Assembly: GCA_943736015.1 (NCBI GenBank)
Contig: OX031071.1
Coordinates: 12,682,119 to 12,746,118 of the forward strand
Source: Tridacna crocea
Lineage: Eukaryota; Mollusca; Bivalvia; Cardiida; Cardiidae
Length of the DNA: 64,000 bases
Direction of reading: 5' to 3'
The translations under genes and the position numbers were made by a program. A model generated the notes under the pieces. That model saw only the letters and a list, made by a program, of their open reading frames with translations. It was not told the origin of the DNA and did no database searches. This document shows, piece after piece, positions 2,989 through 52,271 of the stretch; the first letter of the stretch is position 1, and every line of letters starts with the position of its first letter.

Positions 2989-3213
2989 CCTTTTCCCGCA
3001 TAATCTCGAATTTTAGCGACCCTGAAGATAAAGCATTTTTACATCATTTTGAGAAGAGAGAAAATGCTGTTAACCAGCAATTTCTCCTTTTCCCATTATG
3101 TTTCCTACTCTTTCAAACACAAATACCCTTATTTTGAGCCACATTTCATAAGTTGTCTGCAACTAATTTCTACTTGTACGAGTCAAAAATTTTGCCGTAT
3201 AGAAAAATGTTAA
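2985..3213. mobile_element. Second, tandem TTAA hairpin MITE sharing the TTAA
   Basis: It begins at the same TTAA that ends the previous copy (2985-2988) and ends gttaa at 3210-3213. It retains gagaaaatgctgttaaccagc and the ttgtctgcaac end block, but is more diverged. A further fragment of the core hairpin lies at about 3255-3300. Confidence 0.7.
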
Positions 3214-5107
3214 AATGTAATTAGTAGATACAGGTGTTTACAAATAATATTACTCAAAATGAGCATTTTCTCCTTTTCCTACAATATTTCCTATTCTGTC
3301 AGAAACTTAAAAGCATTTAAGAATAGCGGAAGACAACACACTGAATAACCATGTTTGTCAATGACAGTTGTCAATGTAAACATATTTTGGTTGCCGTCCG
3401 GAAGCGTTTCTGCGCATGTGCGAGATACCGGAAAAGAGAAAACACGAAAAGGTCTATAGTAAAGGCTTAATTAAACGGATGGCAAAGATAAAAAATAAGA
3501 AAGCACGTTTTGAGGAGTTTTATCTTGATCTTTGACCGCAAAAGCCCTTGGTTTCACCTGTAGCGCTGGAGAGGTAAAATATTTTCAAACTTAAACAGGG
3601 GAGAAAACCGTAACATGTTGATAACACTAATTCAGACGAAAACAGAAGAATTTAAGACGAGGAAACAGATGCACATGTATGTCACAATTAAAAGAATGTG
3701 TTTTTTATATACAAATAAGAAAAGCACCAAGATAGTTTTTTTCTTCTGCCAAAGGGGGAGTACCCCTGCCGTATTTGAGATGGTAGTACTGGTTGAATAA
3801 CTATTGAGACGTCACTAATATCAATATAATTTTAGAAACTATCCTTCATATCGCCTGATGAAATTAAGTAATATAAAAAACGTATCAAGATAACACATGA
3901 CCAATTTTGATTTAAAGGCGATAAATAAACAATAAATAGTATTTTCGTACTGCACTGGATAAAAGCTAAAACATTCCTGAAAAAAAAAAATCTTTCCTAA
4001 AAAAGTAATTAAATAATTAATAACCAATTTATAAGTCTGAAATTTGTAGATTCATTGAAAATTATGCAGTGTTGTTAAGTCACGTGTACGATAAAAATAT
4101 AGCGTAGGACAGGAAGAATGTGTATAACTATCTTATCTTTATTTTTCTTAAATTATTATCAATTTTTTTTATCAAATTTAACCCTGATACTGGCGATTTA
4201 TCTTCACTAGAAAATATCAAATCAAATATAATAAATGCTATTATTTTCAGATATCGCAGTTTTCTTCTGCACATAAGAGTTCCTTTGCTATCATAACTAT
4301 TTAATATAAATAATTAGATGGGTCTCGTTGTGATTTATTTTATTCGTTTATTTATCTTTGATTCGATGATTTAGTCGGATCTCTTCTAAACTATTGACCA
4401 GCGAAATTTGAATATTATAAATGTAACACCATAGAATCGATTCATTGTATTTTTGTGGGACAGTTCTGTGCGTTAATGCAAATAAGGATAATGGAGTTTA
4501 CATCATGAGCTAGTTTGGTATTCAATAAAACATAGACGTGGCACACTACGGAAGAAAATGCTGGGAAAAGTCGTCATTGACAATTACTTTATCAAGGAAA
4601 TATACCACTCGTCACAACTCAGCCGATTCCGTACCTACATTTAACCTCGTCCGTAGAACAGTCGTTTCCATTTGAACTGCGAATCACTTGATCTTATATA
4701 TGGTGTGCCAATTTAGTCGTATAGCAACAGCATTAACAACGTCGATGAGTTTATTCTTATCTGTCTATCTGTCGGTGTACTTCCCTTGGAACTGATAAAC
4801 CAAGTTTAAAAATTAATGTCTGAACTGTTTGTCAACTTAAATAAAGTTGAAAGATTTCGATAGAAAATTGAAACTCAAGTTTTCTTTCGTAAGAGGAACA
4901 TGTCAACTTTCAGAACGGTAAGCCGGCGTATTTATGGGCGATGAATGTATCGATCTGCTGCATATCAATACACCAGATACAGCTGTGGGAATTGATGGCT
5001 CCCATCACCCGAGTTTTGCCGAATGGAAAATATACATAATGATCTTACGATTAAAGTCCGGAATAAACAAACAAATGACCAAATGCAGCTCTGAAATACA
5101 AACCACC

Positions 5108-11664: not shown

Positions 11665-11890
11665 TTAACCCTTTACCAACAGACAAAATTTTAGAATGGT
11701 CCAAATTAAAAGCACTTGCAAACAAAGTAAACCTAACTGAAATATTGAAATTTGTTTCCACCAGGATAGAAAACATTGTAGGACAAGAAGAAAATGTTCG
11801 TTACCAGCATTCTCTCCTTTTCCCACAATGTTTTAAAAAGGCTTCCATCTCAGGGTTGTAAAAACCAGGGATTGTTTGGTAAAGGGTTAA
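11665..11890. mobile_element. TTAA hairpin MITE copy inside the transposon
   Basis: TTAA at 11665-11668 and 11887-11890, ends ccctttaccaacagacaaaa and ttggtaaaggg. The central hairpin is partly degraded. A partial copy continues at 11887-12025, another fragment at 12100-12240, and a core plus end fragment at 12765-13059. Confidence 0.85.
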
Positions 11891-12234
11891 TTTGCACATG
11901 ACAAAAAATGGTAATCAAAAAGTTGAAATGAAATTTGATTTGGAAAGGATGGAAAACATTATGGGAAAAGGAGAAAATCTTAGCATTTTCTCTTTTCCTC
12001 ACAATGTTTTCAAAGGCAACAACATAACATATTCATCCAAATTCATAACATAGATTTTGCAAGTACCAAAGTCTGGATTGTTCAAATGATGTTAACTTTC
12101 AAGTGTTTCAGCATTTTCTTCCTTTTCCACAATGTTTTCAAAAGGCTTCGGTCTCAGGGTTGTAAAAAACAAAGGGTCAAGTGACCATTCACCAAACACA
12201 AAAATTTTAGACTGTTTAAATTGAAAGCATTTGC

Positions 12235-30955: not shown

Positions 30956-31187
30956 TTAACCCATTACCATACAATCCCTATTTTGACGACCTTGAGAAAG
31001 AAGCCTTTAGAAAAAAATTGTGGGAAAAGGAGAAGATGCTGGTAACCAGCATTTTCTCCTTGTCCCACAATGTTTTCTACCCTTCACAAAACAAATTTCA
31101 AATTTTCATTCACTTGTATTTTGTTGTCTACAAATGCTTTCGATTTGGACAAATTTGAAGTTTCATCGTCTGGTAATGAGTTTATCA
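30956..31187. mobile_element. TTAA hairpin MITE copy, well preserved
   Basis: TTAA at 30956-30959. The central near-perfect hairpin is ttgtgggaaaaggagaagat, gctggtaaccagc, attttctccttgtcccacaa. The right end is ctggtaatgagtttat. Confidence 0.9.
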
Positions 31188-32316: not shown

Positions 32317-32546
32317 CTAAACCCATTTCCACACAATCCCTACTTTTGACGACCCAGAGAAAGAAGCCTATAGAAAACATTGTTGGAAAAGGAGAAAATG
32401 CTGGTAGCCAGCATTTTCTCTTTTTCCAACAATGTTTTCGACTCTTTCTTAAACAAATTGCAATTTTTTAGTCACTTTAATTTTGTCGTCTGCAAATGCT
32501 TTCAATATGGAACAGACTAAAATTTTGTCGTTTGGTAAAGAGTTAA
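32317..32546. mobile_element. TTAA hairpin MITE copy, well preserved
   Basis: The left end CTAA is probably a mutated TTAA; right TTAA at 32543-32546. Hairpin aacattgttggaaaaggaga around gctggtagccagc. It ends only about 85 bp from the donor of exon 7. Confidence 0.9.
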
Positions 32547-38802: not shown

Positions 38803-38915
38803 TTATACTAAAATCACTGCTACTGTTGTTTTGTTTGTGGTTTTTGTTGTTTTATACTAAAATCACTGCTACTGTTGTTTTTTGTGGTTGTTGTTAATGT
38901 TGTTGTTGCTTTTGT
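38803..38915. repeat. 48-bp tandem duplication plus TTG-rich run beside exon 4
   Basis: tatactaaaatcactgctac followed by tgttgtttt occurs twice (38803 and 38851), then (ttg)n-rich sequence. It ends about 50 bp from the donor of the EGF exon. Confidence 0.8.
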
Positions 38916-38960
38916 TGTGTCTAGTTTCAGCCTTTATGACAATGTCATAAGCAGCATTAC

Positions 38961-39074
38961 CTTCACATGAACGTCCGTCCAGCTGTAATTTATATCCGGT
39001 TCTACAGACGCATTCAGCTGCCGATGTTCCACCACCAACACAGAAATCTTGGCAGTTCAGAGACTTGCATTGGT
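38961..39074 (-). CDS. LRP-like receptor, exon 4: EGF-like module 1
   Basis: A single EGF-like domain with six cysteines in order (QC, NC, FC, EC, VC, SC) and the GYKLQLDGRSC ending typical of the EGF that follows each LRP propeller. Both introns are phase 1. The acceptor TTTACAG|AC is at 39075 and the donor GAAG|GTAATG at 38960. The G left by exon 3 plus AC gives Asp. The calcium-binding consensus is not evident. The acceptor is only about 70 bp from the left end of the inverted repeat starting at 39144. Confidence 0.92.
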
Positions 39075-39143
39075 CTGTAAAGAATGGTATTTCTCTTGTA
39101 GAAACAATGAGCTAAGTTGTTTAATAAATTCTTACACAGTAAC

Positions 39144-42100
39144 AATAGGGTCTGTAAGTCTCGTTTAAATGAAATGGACTTCCGGGATCACTGGTCGCCA
39201 TATTGAGATTTTTTCCACCAGTTTGCTTATGCATATACCGACATTCATGACGCTACACTGATGTTTATGTTTTTCAAATTCTCAAAAATGGGTTTGGAGA
39301 GGAAAGATGTTGGTAAGGGTTAAAATATTGTTTAGAAATAATGCTGTGATTTAAAAAACAATCCGTGGAAATCAGCAAAAATTCGTAAATCAGTTTTCGT
39401 GCATCGTTGCAATGGTTATGCACTCGGTCGATTTCTGATCTAAAGAGGTCAAACTAACCTAGTTATGGCAATAAAATAATGTTCTCAAGTATTTCATCCT
39501 GGAAATACACTCAGAATGCGTCTTAAGAGGTGTTTAGAAACATATTGCGTTTTTGTTATGTTCAGCACCAGTATAGTTTCGCACCTAAGTCGCCTTTGCA
39601 CCATATTGAATGTTGCCGATAATGACATAGCAAATATTCGGCCTAATTTTATTCATTGAATTTCTTAGACAGCCATTCTTAACTGGTCATGAAATAATGG
39701 CTTCGAAACCTATTTTAGCATATTTTGTTGAATTGTATTCAGGTTAATTCATCATTTCAGTAGGGGACTGGGTAAATAGTCTTCACCCTTTAAAGAGCAC
39801 CGAATAAATCAGAGACGCGTTTTTATTCTATAAACAAGATCGAAAGAATAATGTTGAAGTGCCCTTGTCTGGAATGTCTTTGTAAAGCGATCAATGTAGA
39901 TCAGAGATCAGACTGCACATTTTGTACAGTCTGATCATGATGTACATTGATCACAAAAGCAACCAAAGAGGTCAAAGGCACTTTGAGGGTAATAACAAAG
40001 AATTGCAGACTATTTGAATACTCAAGATCTGTAGGCCTATTTGTGCTTGCCCATGTTGATGTACATAGCGAATACAAGTGTAATGTTTCTTATGATGAAA
40101 TATTCTGCAGAAAGTATTTTTGAATATATTGCTTTATCCTATTTTTCCTGCAGGAGGGCAGATAGGCCATGAAATCTTAACAACCACAATAACTGTCCAA
40201 AACATCTACACAGTGCCGCATGAAACATCGTCTACTACAGACGCTTTGGAAATGCCAAACCACTAAAATACAAGATTAATTAATGACAGTCCAAATGATA
40301 CCAGAAACAACAGGATGTACCGCAAGATATGATTTTCCTCTAATTAGAAGAGTAGGCATCTTAGTAGCTTTTTATCAAATGAGATTGTGTTAAAACAGCC
40401 GGGGGGAACCATAACAATTGTGTGAAAAAGAGAAAATATTGGAATGTTTTTCCCGCGGTCTTTTGTACCAAATCAAAGAAAGATTTCACCAGTTCAGTAC
40501 ATATCACCTGCTAATCCTCTCAACTTGAAACAGTCGAAATTTTGTACTGTGAGTTGACCCTTTACCAAACAGTTCCGTTCTTAATTACACTGATGCAGAG
40601 GGCTTTAGACAACATTGAAGGAAGAGGGGAAAAAAGCTGGTCACCAGCTTTCTATATTTTTTTCTCACAATGTTTCCTTTCGGAAATAAACCTAATCATT
40701 TGGGATGCAATTATTCATCCTCCAACTTTGCTTTCAAAAAAGACATAATGAAAATTTTGTTAAATGATAAAAGGTTAAAATGGTTGCATGTCTACTTCTT
40801 GTTCAGCCCTCGTTTAATTCTACTAAGCCTTGCAAGTATTGTTGGACCAGAGACAGCCCAGTTATATGATACCAGCAGATAAAGGGATCAGTGTTTTTGT
40901 GTCCTGCAGTAGACCAATTTTGAAAACATTTTGGCCTATGGACAAATTGATTAAAATAAATATTGTTTGCTTTTGACATGATTTAATGAATACTCAAGCA
41001 TTAATCCTTGATTACTTTTCACATTCACAAGGAAGTTTTATGCTGCAAATATATTTCAGAAGCTATTAAGTCAAAATATTTGATGACTTGTAAATCTTTA
41101 ACAAAAAAGCCTGAGTTTTAACAACCCTGCAGAAAAATGCTTTCGGAAACATTGTGGGAAAAGACATTTAATAATTTTTGCTTTCAACACAATGGTTCCT
41201 ACCCTTTAATAGGTAAATTGTATGATGTGAGCCAAAATCAATGAGCCGTCTGCAAATGCTTTGAATTTGAAGAAGTCTAGAGTTTTATCAGTTGGTAAAG
41301 ATTAAAAGAAATAAACATGAGAAGTGTTGAACATTTTGTAGATATTTATATTTATCACATTTGTAATAACATAAGACTTTAGTAGTATTCTCATGTTACG
41401 GTTTGGGTCCCTTAATGGAGCAAATTTCTGCTTCAGAAAAATATTGTTAAAAATCCGAACTTGTTTAATTATTTGCCATTTCTCACACTTTTTTCAAATA
41501 ATTATTAATTTTGTCCAGCTAATAGGACTTGTATGTAACGGAATTTCTTTTTCCACACAATATCAATGACTGAATGTTGGTTTCATTCTTCAAAGGGCAT
41601 TAAGGAATTTTGTTCAAAACATAAACAAGAATATTGCTTTTCCTTTATTTAACAAAGTTTTGAAACCTAACTTTACTTTTAACACTAGTTAAAATCTCAG
41701 GCCAACGGAGAGAAAAAAATTGAAAGATTGAGATGAAAACATTGTGGCTAATAGATATTGCTGGCTGTGAGCAAAATCATATTTGGTCACAATAGTTTCA
41801 AAAGCAGTCTGCTGCAATTCTGTTTTAATTTAGTGGCATTTCTCGGTTAGGATTTGAATACCCTTTCAATTAACTATTACTGATTTTGAAAAGTACCCGT
41901 AAATATTAGCATGACCTTCTTTGCCTTGCAAAGGTGGTAAATATAGAACATTAATATTATAGTACTAATTTTCTTTAACTCTTTACCATACGACATAATT
42001 TCTGACTAGTCCAAATTGGAAGCATTTGTAGACGACAAAAATTATTTAACTTAAAAAATTGAAAACTGGTTTGAGAAGGAAAGAAAACTTTGCGGAAAAA

Positions 42101-42398
42101 GGAGAAAATGCTAGTTACCATCATTTTCTCCTTTTCCAACAATGTTTTTAGAAGGCTTCTTTCTCATGGTCGTGAAAACTAAGGATTGTTTGGGAAAGTG
42201 TAATTAAATGTTTAAATGACTGCATATCCACTGATATATGAGATCACCAATGCCAACACGTTGTCCTTGAGAGGTGTAGTGTTGCAGTAATGGTTCCTTT
42301 TTAGTGTCATTCTTCTTGCAGGAGAAAGCTCTGAAAGTGTATTAGCAAGAGATGTTTGTAAATATAGTATATCAAGAAGTAAAAGCTTTTAGCTCACC
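39144..42398 (+). repeat. Giant inverted repeat, left arm
   Basis: The left arm pairs with 46950-43057. Anchors include an exact 37-bp match (39180-39216 with the complement near 46878-46914), cctgcaggagggcagat at 40147, aaagggcattaaggaatttt at 41596, ccttaatggagcaaatttct at 41411, and ttttagctcacc at its inner end. It contains hairpin MITE copies at 40554-40778, 41098-41305 and 41975-42207, each with a partner in the right arm. No coding function seen. Confidence 0.93.
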
Positions 42399-42407
42399 CA
42401 CAGGACA

Positions 42408-42586
42408 TATCATAGACTTGTCCAATTGAAAACATTTGGAAAAAACAATTTAAATGGGCTGAGTAGAAAACCTTGGGGAAAAAAGAGAAAATGCTGGTTA
42501 CCAGTATTTTCTCCTATACCTACAATGTTATCAAAAGGCTTCTTCCCTAGGATCATAAAACTTGGGATTGTGTGGTAAAGGATTAA
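42408..42586. mobile_element. Hairpin MITE in the spacer of the giant inverted repeat
   Basis: Core gagaaaatgctggttaccag with right end tgtggtaaaggattaa (TTAA 42583-42586). The spacer 42399-43056 between the arms otherwise shows nothing recognisable. Confidence 0.8.
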
Positions 42587-44395
42587 TGAAAGTCTTTCTT
42601 GTCTCATTCACTTACATATATTTGTTTGTGAATTCGTCTATTGTTGACAGTTTCTTTAAAACCACCTTCAATTGAGTATGAAACTGCTTTCAACACAATT
42701 TCTATCAAATCACAGCTGCCGAAATTTAATGCTGAAAGCAGCCAAAAACTTGATTCAATCAACAAATAATCACGCCTGTAAATTCACCTTTCTGGGAGTT
42801 TCTTAACTCCCCCTTGTAGGTATCCTTCACAGGAATCTTCCTGAGCAACTGGCTGTTTTCAGCCAACAGATTTCATTACCAAACTGACTGAAGTTGCTTT
42901 GATCTTCATTAAATGGACGGATTACAGCTCAAAAATATTGTATGAACAAGTGTATTACTGGTGCGAGATGTTCAGAAACATAGATATGTAAAGTGGCTTC
43001 AATGATAATACCAAAATACTCTTGTCCTGGGCACAGTTATGCACTGAGTTCGCTCTGGTGAGCTAAAAACTTTTATTACTTAGGATACTATATTTAAAAA
43101 CATCTCTTACTAATATACTTTCAGAGCTGCCCCCTGCTAGAAGAATGACAGTAAAATGGGAACCATGACTGCAAGACAACTACACCTTACAGGAACCACA
43201 AGTTATGCAATAGTGATCTCATGTATCATTGGAAATGCAGTCATTTAAACATTTAATTTACCCTTTCCCAAACAATCCCTGGTTTTCATTAGCCTGAGGA
43301 AGAAGCCTTCTGAAAATATTATGAGAAAAGGAGAAAAGGCTGGTAACCAGCATTTTGTCCTTTTCTTTCAATGTTTTCTCCCCTTCCAAAAACAATTTTT
43401 AATTTTTGAGTTATATAAATTCGTCTGCAAATGTTTCCAATTCGGACTAGTCTGAAATTATATCGTGTGGTAAAGAATTAAAGAAATATAATGCTATAGT
43501 ATTAATGTTATATGTTTACCATCTTTGCACAGCAAAGAAGTTAATACCGCTTTTTACGGATGCTTTTCAAAATCAGTAATAGTTAAAAAGGTATTTAAAT
43601 CCTAACCGAGAAGTGTCAATAAATTAAAACAGCATTGCAGCAGACTGCTTCTGAAAACATTGTGACCAAAAATGATATTTCTCACAGCCAGCAATATCTA
43701 TTTGCCTCAATGGTTTCATCTCAACATTTCAATTTTTTTTTTCATTTGCCTCAGATTTATCAAGTGTTAAAAGTAAAGGTAGGTTTTAGGACCATGTTAA
43801 ATAAAGGAAATGGCAATATTCTTGTTTTCTTTAGAACAAAATTCCTTAATGCCCCCTGAAGAGTGAAAGCACTATTCATGTAGTAAAATTCAGTCATTGA
43901 CATTGTATGGAAAAAGAAATTCTTTTACATACAAGTCTTATTAGCTGCACAAAATATATAGTCCTTTGAAAACAGTGTGAGAAATGGCAAATTTATAAAC
44001 AATTTTGGAGTTTTAGACAATAATTTTCTGAAGCAGAAATTTGCTCCATCAAGGGACCCAAATAACACGAGAATAATACAAAAGTGTTATGTTACTACAA
44101 ATGTAATAAAGATAAATATCTACAAAATTTTCAAGATTTCTCATGTTTATTTCTTTTAATCTTTACCAACTGATAAAACTCTTGATTTCTTCAAATTCAA
44201 AGCATTTGCAGACGGCTCATTGATTCTGACACACATCATACAATTCACCTATTAAAGGATAGGAAACATTGTGTTGAGATTGTGGAGAAATTGTTAGTTG
44301 TCTTTTTCTACAGTGTTTGCTAAAGCATTTTTCTGAAGGGTTGTTTATTCTTAGGATTTTTCGGGAAAGACTTACAAGTCATCAAATACACTGAC

Positions 44396-44623
44396 TTAAC
44401 CCTTTCCCAAAGAAGCCCCGGTTTTTACGTGTCTACAGTCAAAATCTTTTGAAAACACTGTGAGAAAAGGTAAAATTGCTCGTAACGAGCAATTTCTCCT
44501 TTTCCCACAGTGTTTTTTACCCTTTTTGAGAACATTCTGCCATTCTATCAATATCTAAAATTGTCATCTGCAAATTCTTTCAGTTTGGAAGAGTCCAAAA
44601 TTTGTCGTTTGGGAAAGGGTTAA
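44396..44623. mobile_element. TTAA hairpin MITE, right-arm-specific insertion
   Basis: TTAA at 44396-44399 and 44620-44623. Ends ccctttcccaaagaagcccc and gtcgtttgggaaaggg; core hairpin aaattgctcgtaacgagcaattt. The left arm has a single uninterrupted ttaa at the matching place (complement of about 41066), so this copy inserted after the arms formed. Confidence 0.95.
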
Positions 44624-45567
44624 TAGCTTCTGAAACATATTTGCTGCAAAAAAACTTCAGAAGCATTCTTCTGAATGTGAAAAAAAGTAATCAAGGAGTA
44701 ATGCTTGAGTATTCATTAAATCATGTCAAAAGCAGACAATACTTATTTTGACCAATTTATCCTTAGGTCAAAATGTTTTCAAAATTGGTCTGCTGCAAGA
44801 AACAAAAAGTTACCTACAGGAGACAACCCACCGACCCCTTCATCTGCTGGTATCATATCATTGGGCTGTCTCTGGTCCAACAACACTTTCAAAGGTTGAA
44901 TTAAATAAGGGCTGTATAAAAAAAAGACCATTTTAACATTTTACCATTTAACAAACTTTTCATTATGTCTATTTTGAAAGCAAAGTTGGAGGATGAACAG
45001 TTGTAGCCCAAATAATTAGATTATTTCTGAAAGGAAACATTGTGAGAAAAAGTATTAAAAGCTTGTGACCAGCTTTTCTCCCCTCTTCCTTCAATGTTGT
45101 CTAAAGCCTTCTGCATTAGGGTAATTAAGAACAGAATTTTTTGGTAAAGGCTTAACTTACAGAACAGACTGGTTCAAATTGAGAGGATTAACATGTGATA
45201 TGTAGCTGAACTGGTGAAATTTGTCTTTGAATTGGTACAAAACACAGCTGAAGATTTCCAATAATTTTTCTTTTTTTCACAATTGTTACGGCTTCCCCCC
45301 GCCCCCTGGCTGTTTTAACACAAGCTCATTTGATAAAGAGCTAACAAGATAACAAGATGCCTACTCTTCCAAATACATGATAATACCCTGAAAATCATAT
45401 CTTGTGGTACATCCTGTTGCATCTGCTGCCATTTGGACTGTCATGAATTAAACTTGTACTTTAGCGGTTTGGCATTTCCGAAGAGTCTAAAGTAGGCGGT
45501 GTTTCATGCGGCACTTTACAGATGTTTTGGACAGTTACTGTGATTGTTAGGATTTCATGGCCTGTCT

Positions 45568-45930
45568 CATCCTCGGATACCCCAGGGTCTCCCTATTTGC
45601 TACGCTACATCGACCCTGGGACAATTGACTAATAAAACTTTGAATCAGCCGCCGAAAATCGATACTAAACGTCATACCGTACAGTACACTCGCCCATCAC
45701 AAAATGATGATAGAACCAATGAAAAGCCAGCATTCGTCCAGCGGGAAAGCGAGCCGCCGAAAATCGATACGAAACGTCATAGCGTACACTACACTCGCCA
45801 ATCACAAAATGATGATGGAACCAATGAAAAGCCAGCATTCGGCCAGCGGTAAAGCGAAGGAAATTCAACTAATTGTCCCAGGGGTCGATGTAGCGTAGCA
45901 AATAGGGAGACCCCGGGGTATCCGAGGATG
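45568..45930. mobile_element. 363-bp MITE with ~60-bp TIRs and 9-bp target duplication
   Basis: TIRs start catcctcggatacccc and run about 60 bp with few differences (through gtctccctatttgctacgct). The flanking duplication is ggcctgtct at 45559-45567 and 45931-45939. The interior holds two ~104-bp tandem units beginning gccgccgaaaatcgatac. A 9-bp duplication is typical of Mutator-like elements, and 8-9 bp also fits Merlin; no transposase is present. The 102-codon frame over it is repeat DNA. Confidence 0.93.
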
Positions 45931-47125
45931 GGCCTGTCTGCCCTCCTGCAGAAAAAAATAGATTAAAACAATGTATTCAAAAAAAAAGATTTTCTGCAGA
46001 CGTTACATTTGTAAGGGCTACATCAAAATGGGCATGCACAGGAACTGATCTTGAGTATTCAGATAGTCTACAATTCTTTGTTATAACCCTCAAAGTGCCT
46101 TTGACCATTTAAGTTGCTTTTGTGATCAATGTACACCATAATCAGACGGCACAAAGTGTGCTTTCTGATCTCTGATCTATGTAGTGATCGCTTTGCAAAG
46201 AAATTCCAGACAAGGGCAACTTCAACATTATTTTTACGATCTTATTTATAGAATGAAAACACCTCCTTGATTTATTCGGCGCTCGTTAAAGATTAGGCCT
46301 ACTTACCCATTTCCTAGTGAAATGATGAATTTACCTGAAAATAATTCAACAAAAGATACCAAAATAGGTTTTGAAGACATGAATTCACGACCAGTTATAA
46401 ATGTCTGTCCAAGGCAATTGAATGAATAAAATGACGCCGAGTAATTGCATCTGTCATTATCGGCAACATTCAATATGGTGCAAAAGAGACTTAGGTGTGA
46501 AACTACACTGGTGCGAAACATATCAAAACCGCAAAATGCTTCTAAACGCCCCTGAAGACGCAAACTGAGTGCATTTCTAGAATGAAATGCTTAAAAACAT
46601 TATTTTATTGCCATAATAAAGTTAGTTTGACCTCTTTAGATCAGAAATCGACCGAGTACATGTCCACTGCAATGATGTACGAAGACTGGGTTACGAATTT
46701 TCGCTGATTTCCACGGCTTGTTTTTAAATCACAGCATTATTTCTAAACAATATTTCAACCCTTACCAACATCTTTTATCTCTGGTTTTTTTCTCTCAAAA
46801 CCCCTTTTTTGAGAATTTGAATAACAGATAAATCAGTGTAGCGTCACGAATGTTGGTATATGGATAAGCAATATAGCGGAAAAAATCTCAATATGGCGAC
46901 CAGTGATCCCGGAAGAGCATGTTATCTCAACGAAACTTACAGACCTTATTTGGCCGGCATGGCAGGTGTTGTCTGATTTTCGGCCAGCTATCAGGAAATT
47001 TCATAATTATAAATGTGACTGGCTATCAAGGTAAAGTTGTCGTAATTTTAAGTCATTTCGGTTAAATATTGTTTTGGTTAAGGTTGTGATACATTTATGC
47101 ATTTCAGCAGATAGGTAAAGTTTAC

Positions 47126-47273: not shown

Positions 47274-47407
47274 CTGGAATAAATTGAAATTGATATTGAT
47301 ACACAATGGCTCACCTACGACCAGTCTCGTCCCCTGCAGTCTGCGCAGTCTGTCATGAATCAAAACGTTTGCTTTTGTACAATGTGGATCGATGAATTAG
47401 AATTACG

Positions 47408-47450: not shown

Positions 47451-47823
47451 TTAGCACGTAGGTTTAAATACTTAACTTGTTTTGATTATTATTCATATGT
47501 AGTTATTTCCGCTTCTTTTGTCCGCTATCTCCTTAGCGTTTATGACAGGAGACAAATACATAAAACGCGGACCTCTACTTAAAACTTTATACTTGAGCAC
47601 GAGCACAGGGTGTCAAATGAATGGTTATTTTTTTATTATTATTTTTTGAAGAATTAAGGTTAACAATGACGAAAAACCATAGTTATTCTCTGAGTTATAA
47701 TGAATGATGCTCGTAACTGCCCAAATAACCACTATAATTTATATACATTCTATTGAAATTCATGCGTTGCATAGGAGTCATTGACAAGTCTGTTTATATG
47801 GCAAATAACAATTAGATACTAAC

Positions 47824-48076
47824 TTTATACAGAGCTATGTCGTAAAGGTTTGAGTGCGATCTCCGACGGATAATATTCCTGTTTTCGCCCCCAAAATCTG
47901 CGCTTTCTACGGTGTCTCGGACGTAATCAACCCAGTAAATACGTGACTCGGAGTGATCCACTGCTATACCCATAGGCATCACTAACCCTTTAGTTATGAT
48001 CGGGTCTCTGTCGGCGCCTGATAACGTAGACCGCTCAATTCTTGTTAAATTTCCGATATTGCTCCAGAAAAGGTAC
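47824..48076 (-). CDS. LRP-like receptor, exon 2: propeller 1, blades 4-5
   Basis: Continues propeller 1 with YLFWSN, MPMGIAVD and RIYWVD, all classic YWTD-repeat signatures, plus an NLT sequon. The acceptor TTTTCAG|G is at 48077 and completes the Gly codon split with exon 1 (GG|G). The donor is AAA|GTTAGT at 47823, phase 0. The exon is 253 bp. The downstream intron is only 550 bp (47274-47823) and holds nothing I recognise. The upstream intron (48077-51701) carries SINE and MITE copies. Confidence 0.92.
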
Positions 48077-48741
48077 CTGAAAATATCACCGTTTTGACAT
48101 TTAGTTCCATGTAAGATGAGATAAAGATCAGATTGCAATAATTTAGCTGTCAATCCTTCCATCTGCTTTGTCCGCAAATTTTGAAATGCCCAGAGCCTAC
48201 ATCCTTTGTCCTCCCCCTTTTGCCTTCCCCATTGCACCCCTTAGATAATTCATAATGTACAAGGGCCTTGCTCTATGAATATTTGGTTCGTTGCTGATGC
48301 AAACACTGTAGATCAGCAACAGTCTATGCAGACCACGCAGGCTGACTGGGATCGAAACCTTTAGTTATCATCGATGAATTTTTGTTTGTGTCAATGGAAA
48401 ATTCCACCTCATGATCTAGCAAATTTTACGACAAATTCAGTCCATAGCATGCGATATCTTGCGTGTTGCCATGCACCAAAAGATGCGTAAAACTTTTTTC
48501 CGGAACGCCGCTTACTTCTTTTTCTATTATTCGTTGCTTAAAAAGTTTTTCCTTTTCGACTCCTTAGCCAATTTTAGATGCACTTCTTGACATTATATAT
48601 TTTAAAACGTCTTTAAACCAGCATTTTTTCCCCCAATGAAAATCTTCAAATTACTTCTTTTGCATACCCTTTAACTAATAACTCAGCACTCTAACGACCC
48701 TGTTATATCGACTTCATGCACTTCACCATGATACGGTCTCC

Positions 48742-51600: not shown

Positions 51601-51701
51601 AAAAAAATCACTTTTGAAATAGCAAATTTGACTTCGTTTTATCTGCTTTAAAGTTCCGACTAACTTTTCTAGCAGGACAAGGGTTAGATAAACTCACATA
51701 C

Positions 51702-52161
51702 CCATGAATTGGATCTACCGCTAGTCCGGTTGGCCTTTTCAAATCACTGTCAACGATTACTCTATAAAGCGTTTGATTAGTATCTCGATTGGTTCCCGGT
51801 TGTACTACTATCCATTGATGCGCTTCGTCCACCCAGTAGACGTTGTTCGAGATCCAGTCTACTGCAATTTTCACATATGCGGAGTTTGGAATGCCGTGAT
51901 GAAACGTCTCGATGCCAGAGTAATCTAAATTGTCGGGGTCATAGCCGTTGGCGACGTAGATTCGGGCTGAATAGCCGTCATAAAAGTACAGTAACTGTCG
52001 CGCATAGTCGACGTCACAGGAATAGAACCAAACCGTACCGTCAAACCATATCCGTGTAGCAATCACGTTCTCGTCGTATGGTGTTCCGTTGAAGAAACGT
52101 AAGTGAGTTTGGTTTTGATGGTTGTTGTCATCCATAATCACACTTACAATGATGTTTTCAG
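51702..52161 (-). CDS. LRP-like receptor, exon 1 in window: propeller 1, blades 1-3
   Basis: Extracellular YWTD-type beta-propeller segment of an LDL-receptor-related protein. The open frame contains NIIVSV, LLYFYD and NVYWVD strand motifs and a LKRPTGLAVDPIHG blade end, the usual P.G.AVD pattern of the family. Sequons NQT, NGT and NQT suggest a glycosylated ectodomain. The acceptor is CACAG at 52163-52162; an alternative AG six bases upstream would start the exon at 52167 and keep the frame. The donor is GG|GTATGT at 51701. The exon starts with two bases of a split codon (phase 1) and ends after two bases (phase 2), which matches exon 2. The preceding exon is not visible up to 64000, so the N-terminus lies outside. 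Confidence 0.88.
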
Positions 52162-52271
52162 CTGTGCCTGTTGTTGGTTAGAAATATAGAAAAATAATTC
52201 AATACTAGTTTTTTCATAAACATGTGCGAGTTCTGATTGGCTGTTTTAGCTCCAACATGAAGCAGTGCCGG

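Follow-up and report, generated by a model that had tools for sequence, protein, structure and literature searches.

Several described systems come close to the structure reported here. Inverted Alu pairs in primate introns consist of two opposed copies of one dispersed family that lie in one transcription unit and are able to pair. In metazoa, long editing substrates conventionally come from the pairing of nearby inverted repeats (PMC9989829). Foldback-like elements such as Galileo of Drosophila have very long inverted arms ending in one transposon's terminal repeat (PMC4168063), and large non-autonomous DNA transposons have terminal inverted repeats (TIRs), many copies and no long open reading frame (ORF). 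Here, we describe an intron of an LDL-receptor-like gene in the bivalve Tridacna crocea that is nearly filled by two long arms in opposite orientation. The intron lies in a window of 64,000 nucleotides (assembly GCA_943736015.1, contig OX031071.1, positions 12,682,119 to 12,746,118 of the forward strand), and all coordinates without a contig name are positions in this window.

The structure is of a known kind: two ordinary transposon copies, both old, that lie tail-to-tail. It differs from inverted Alu pairs in that the family is a DNA transposon, the arms exceed 3 kb, nearly fill the intron and are 86% alike, and the case is known from DNA sequence alone. As in a foldback element, both outer ends are long inverted copies of one end. 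However, a mobile, repeated two-armed unit was not found elsewhere (in 19 loci and the best 40 of 280 junction candidates), and the usual form of this family is a single copy with a distinct 3' end. The family itself resembles the large non-autonomous TIR DNA transposons in its TIRs, its many copies (some 99% identical) and the lack of a long ORF in L036 and L032 (labels of this form denote stretches fetched from the genome). No autonomous partner came to light, though no search was aimed at one. We found no account of this intronic structure in the literature searched, which is not a claim that it is absent from print.

The original prediction was of a giant imperfect inverted repeat in this intron, and the arms were indeed found where it had placed them. 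They run in opposite orientation (39144-42398 against 46950-43057), and the arm-to-arm alignment that it had proposed as a check consists of three BLASTN pieces (E = 0.0) whose identity, gaps included, is 80-83%; across 3,189 ungapped columns it is 86.2%. No further inverted match of at least 300 bp at E 1e-30 or better is present in the window. Together, the arms occupy 7.8 of the 8.05 kb of the intron, leaving 69 and 175 bp outside them, in agreement with the predicted distances of about 70 and 175 bp to the splice sites. The main features are as follows.

39075..47125, minus strand: host intron of 8,051 bp in the LDL-receptor-like gene, its GT..AG read from the sequence
39144..43024, plus strand: arm A, assigned to a transposon copy; 5' end at 39144/39145, the terminus common to L026-L044; 3' end lost; homology to L010-L012 up to 43023/43024
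43025..46950, minus strand: arm B, assigned to a second, inverted copy; 5' end at 46949/46950 (the terminus); 3' end lost; inner end at about 43023-43036
43020..43036, no strand: junction of the truncated inner ends, from alignment to L010-L013; about 2 bp of microhomology, no spacer
41979..42200, plus strand: miniature inverted-repeat transposable element (MITE) in arm A, at the same nucleotide as in arm B; site empty in 31/31 other copies in which it is readable; sister of the arm B MITE (99/94)
43258..43476, minus strand: arm B counterpart of that MITE, matching it in site and in orientation within the element

The two arms are almost certainly copies of one family of non-coding TIR DNA transposons. 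When the outer kilobase of arm A was searched against the genome (1.05 Gb; best 40 of 930 first-look candidates scored), no match exceeded 85% identity apart from arm A itself and a tandem paralog. Twenty stretches were taken from these matches: one is the paralog (L025), and in all 19 others (L026-L044) one copy begins at the same terminus, ATAGGG, as arms A and B. Within 8.5 kb inward of that terminus, none of the 19 loci holds a second match longer than 150 bp to the outer kilobase. Complete copies are 3.6-4.7 kb long. All 13 that were inspected begin with ATAGGGTC, and their right end is GACCCTAT in 12 and GGCCCTAT in one (L038), which gives the family terminal inverted repeats. When up to three mismatches are allowed, a 30-base pattern taken from the 5' end matches the genome 217 times, compared to 0 for a control pattern. 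No ORF longer than 100 amino acids lies inside the element in L036 (a complete copy) or L032. Terminal inverted repeats, many dispersed copies and the absence of such an ORF from these two copies are features of a non-autonomous TIR DNA transposon. Judged by eye, the 13 complete copies have in common no target-site duplication above 2 bp; the candidate reads AT or TA and is hard to tell from the end of the repeat. Certain family copies are 99% identical to one another, which points to recent movement of the family. Arms A and B match other copies at 83-88% over at least 800 columns and, on this divergence, are old, though the family has moved recently.

These borders speak against the proposal that the structure formed by inverted duplication rather than from transposon ends, since both arms have, as their outer end, a dispersed transposon's 5' terminus. 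A generic inverted duplication of host DNA was rejected because of the same borders and because the flanks have no inverted similarity longer than 12 bp. As a separate observation, one subfamily (L018, L019, L023, L024 and L033) has its inner segment, at arm A coordinates of about 40604-42530, inverted relative to arm A. With several similar copies, this form is a rearranged variant that amplified.

The spacer of about 0.66 kb that had been predicted between the arms is mostly arm A's element continued, with arm B adjoining at about 43023-43025. The stretch 42201-43024 runs as one piece of element in L010 and L011; L013-L016 likewise have one uninterrupted stretch from 42201 to 42926-42969, and homology in L012 gets to 43023 with interrupting insertions. 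Beyond 43023/43024, L010-L012 stay alike while arm A diverges, and arm A is thus cut there. Alignment (the final few bases by eye) puts the meeting point of the arms at about 43023-43025, where they share about 2 bp, and their extents at about 39144-43024 and 43023/25-46950. Their inner ends are offset, with arm A reaching about 618 bp deeper into the element than its partner. A search for the 3' terminal repeat in the middle of the intron found none; both arms lack the 3' end. With a query spanning the junction, the window was the sole match across it among the best 40 of 280 candidates. A mobile palindromic unit was rejected, as no second one appears there or in the 19 loci.

A MITE common to both arms ties them together. 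It confirms, for one MITE, the claim that MITEs sit at matching places in the arms: this MITE is shared at one nucleotide. The site of the shared MITE was searched in 33 loci, and in the 31 where both flanks were found it is empty (boundaries inexact in L010, L014 and L016). For queries spanning the MITE from either arm, the opposite arm was the sole match to cross it among the best 40 of 5,992 and of 7,606 candidates. MITEs A and B are 82% identical and come out as sisters (99/94) when 59 MITEs, drawn from the window and the fetched loci, are placed in one tree. Convergent insertion of the MITE is unlikely given this placement, in a tree that leaves out the best-matching genomic MITE copies. 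In a tree of the element itself (35 rows, without L012 and L016, which have too few columns), arms A and B and their paralogs form one clade (97/92). Probably, then, the arms share an ancestor that already bore the MITE and of which these searches found no other descendant, a relationship most simply explained by a daughter copy nearby.

The tandem paralog, 109 kb away, provides a date. It has the same outer borders and the same inverted pair, and it lacks about 41084-44068 (some 3 kb of the centre). The paralog's inverted pair comes from the gene duplication, and the pair in the window predates that event. Identity to the paralog is 94.2% for arm A and 89.1% for arm B; the two values differ, though both are expected to date from the same duplication. 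Two insertions are present in arm B of the window.

44400..44619, no strand: diverged MITE, kin of the shared one (69% to MITE B), in arm B only; no counterpart in arm A
45568..45930, no strand: insertion in arm B only, with 60-bp terminal inverted repeats that are 97% identical; the paralog continues without it

The paralog lacks 44400-44680 except for 24 bp. Being missing from the paralog, the two elements either arrived later or were lost there. The second is probably a young MITE; its core is internally repetitive.

With arms that are transposon copies, hold one MITE at one site and are older than the gene duplication, all of which is read from the sequence itself, we consider it probable that a local daughter copy inserted in inverse orientation and that a central deletion followed. 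One element would have entered the intron of the ancestral LDL-receptor-like gene, and a MITE of about 220 bp would then have inserted into it (we infer the order of these two steps). A daughter copy would next have re-inserted nearby in the opposite orientation by local transposition. A single deletion, using about 2 bp of microhomology, would have taken both 3' ends and anything between them. Tandem duplication of the gene would have come after, followed by separate decay in which arm B of the window gained its two insertions and the paralog lost about 3 kb of its centre.

Clustering of family copies bears on the local step. Among 100 listed of the 217 5' ends, six neighbour pairs lie within 12 kb, compared to a random expectation with a mean of 0.22 and at most 4 in 5,000 trials. 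Two of the six are inverted, and one of these, on C7, is tail-to-tail. In the last kilobase of its first copy, the 3' end is intact and is followed by unrelated DNA. Two further arrangements were seen. At C2:15091861-15091940 (G000), two 5' ends stand back to back with about 20 bp between the matched patterns. In L015, a copy filling the first 2 kb is followed, in the same orientation, by a second family 5' end (3047-3528), which is outside the six pairs.

Several points weigh against a local daughter copy. Local transposition is visible only as clustering, to which segmental duplication could add pairs. The branch uniting the arms measures 0.0065 changes per site, compared to 0.07-0.09 to each tip, so that the arms parted soon after their common ancestor, and the tree of 35 rows includes only five older copies. 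In plain identity, many other copies are as close to each arm as the opposite arm is. MITE copies elsewhere are closer than the arm MITEs are to each other (up to 87% to MITE B and up to 86% to MITE A), and it is these closest copies that the tree of 59 omits. Each whole-genome search scored the best 40 places, and the copies taken for comparison were those of highest similarity and not drawn at random. Finally, both inner ends, where a 2-bp target duplication would be read, are lost.

Two independent insertions of an old, rare, MITE-bearing subfamily, followed by central deletion, form the next best explanation, although an unlikely one. It would fit the very short uniting branch and the abundance of the family (217 5'-end matches), in which close pairs of copies do occur. 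Yet the two MITE-spanning searches gave no third MITE-bearing copy within their respective best 40, every one of the 31 readable sites is empty, and it would take a coincidence to bring two members of an otherwise undetected subfamily into one 8-kb intron.

Rather less probable is a single insertion that was then duplicated in place, in inverted orientation, by aberrant gap repair or template switching, leaving a foldback-like element with two 5' ends. The common MITE suits such an event, as do the microhomology of about 2 bp at the turn, the difference of about 618 bp in where the arms end within the element and the inverted inner segment of the L018/L019/L023/L024/L033 subfamily. For Galileo in Drosophila, gap repair is described as a process that may break off, slip or change template, and so can give rise to defective copies (PMC4168063). 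On the other hand, the right flank would have to prime on the element's 5' end, yet its inverted similarity to the left is at most 12 bp, and a palindromic copy is found in 0/19 loci and in none of the best 40 of 280 junction candidates. A nearby daughter copy with later loss of the centre remains our preferred history.

Whatever its origin, the pair could matter at the RNA level. Pairing over several kilobases of pre-mRNA had been predicted, and computed folding makes it possible. The minimum-free-energy fold of the inner 3,334 nt pairs 1,160 of the 1,343 bases of arm B with arm A in register, with a predicted energy of -1,685 kcal/mol compared to -757 for the parts folded apart. Watson-Crick runs between the arms reach 45, and 20 runs are at least 20 long. 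Like a transcript with any other inverted transposon pair, the pre-mRNA could fold into a long hairpin. That selection has kept this hairpin for the sake of the receptor gene's splicing, editing or small RNAs is very improbable, even though the arms are predicted to pair so extensively and persist, inverted, in both paralogs. Identity of arm to arm within an intron (86.4 and 86.6%) is not above that between introns (87.4 and 85.6%). Of 1,810 four-way columns, 95 follow the tree, 4 a within-intron pattern and 3 a control pattern; there is no signal of selection or conversion keeping the arms alike. Moreover, the paralog has lost about 3 kb.

The likeliest consequence would be an incidental ADAR substrate in intron RNA, without a selected role. 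A section heading in PMC9989829 names evolutionarily young repeats as the primary editing targets; since the arms are old and show no concerted change, at most incidental editing is to be expected. Production of small RNAs from the arms, raised as a possibility by the original prediction, is less likely in view of a survey that reports no evidence for a dedicated small interfering RNA pathway in molluscs (PMC12479628). The stronger proposal, in which the hairpin would form in the pre-mRNA of both paralogs, be hyper-edited, draw the distant splice sites close to each other and alter how the receptor transcript is spliced or retained in the nucleus, appears quite improbable. Weakest of all is an assembly chimera, in favour of which nothing was found and which the 14% divergence of the arms and the same inverted pair in the tandem paralog leave with hardly any likelihood.

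The locus shows a giant intronic inverted repeat arising from ordinary transposon copies. It is a datable one, older than the gene duplication, and the duplicates have since decayed separately. Should RNA editing be found there, the paralogs with and without the centre offer a natural comparison; otherwise, this is ordinary genome wear.

By its domain matches, the host gene is LDL-receptor-like. Three of the six scanned ORFs have no domain match at E up to 0.01. An Ldl_recept_b match (5.6e-12) lies in ORF 47812-48240, EGF-like matches under the curated cut-offs lie in ORF 38869-39111, and ORF 51608-52177 has one match, under the curated cut-off. At the place corresponding to window position 47318, the paralog carries an additional stretch of about 1.85 kb. 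The shared MITE belongs to a very common family of the genome, with a core of about 65 bp that is self-complementary; more copies lie in the window, for example at 2763-2977, 11671-11892, 30964-31181 and 32326-32543.

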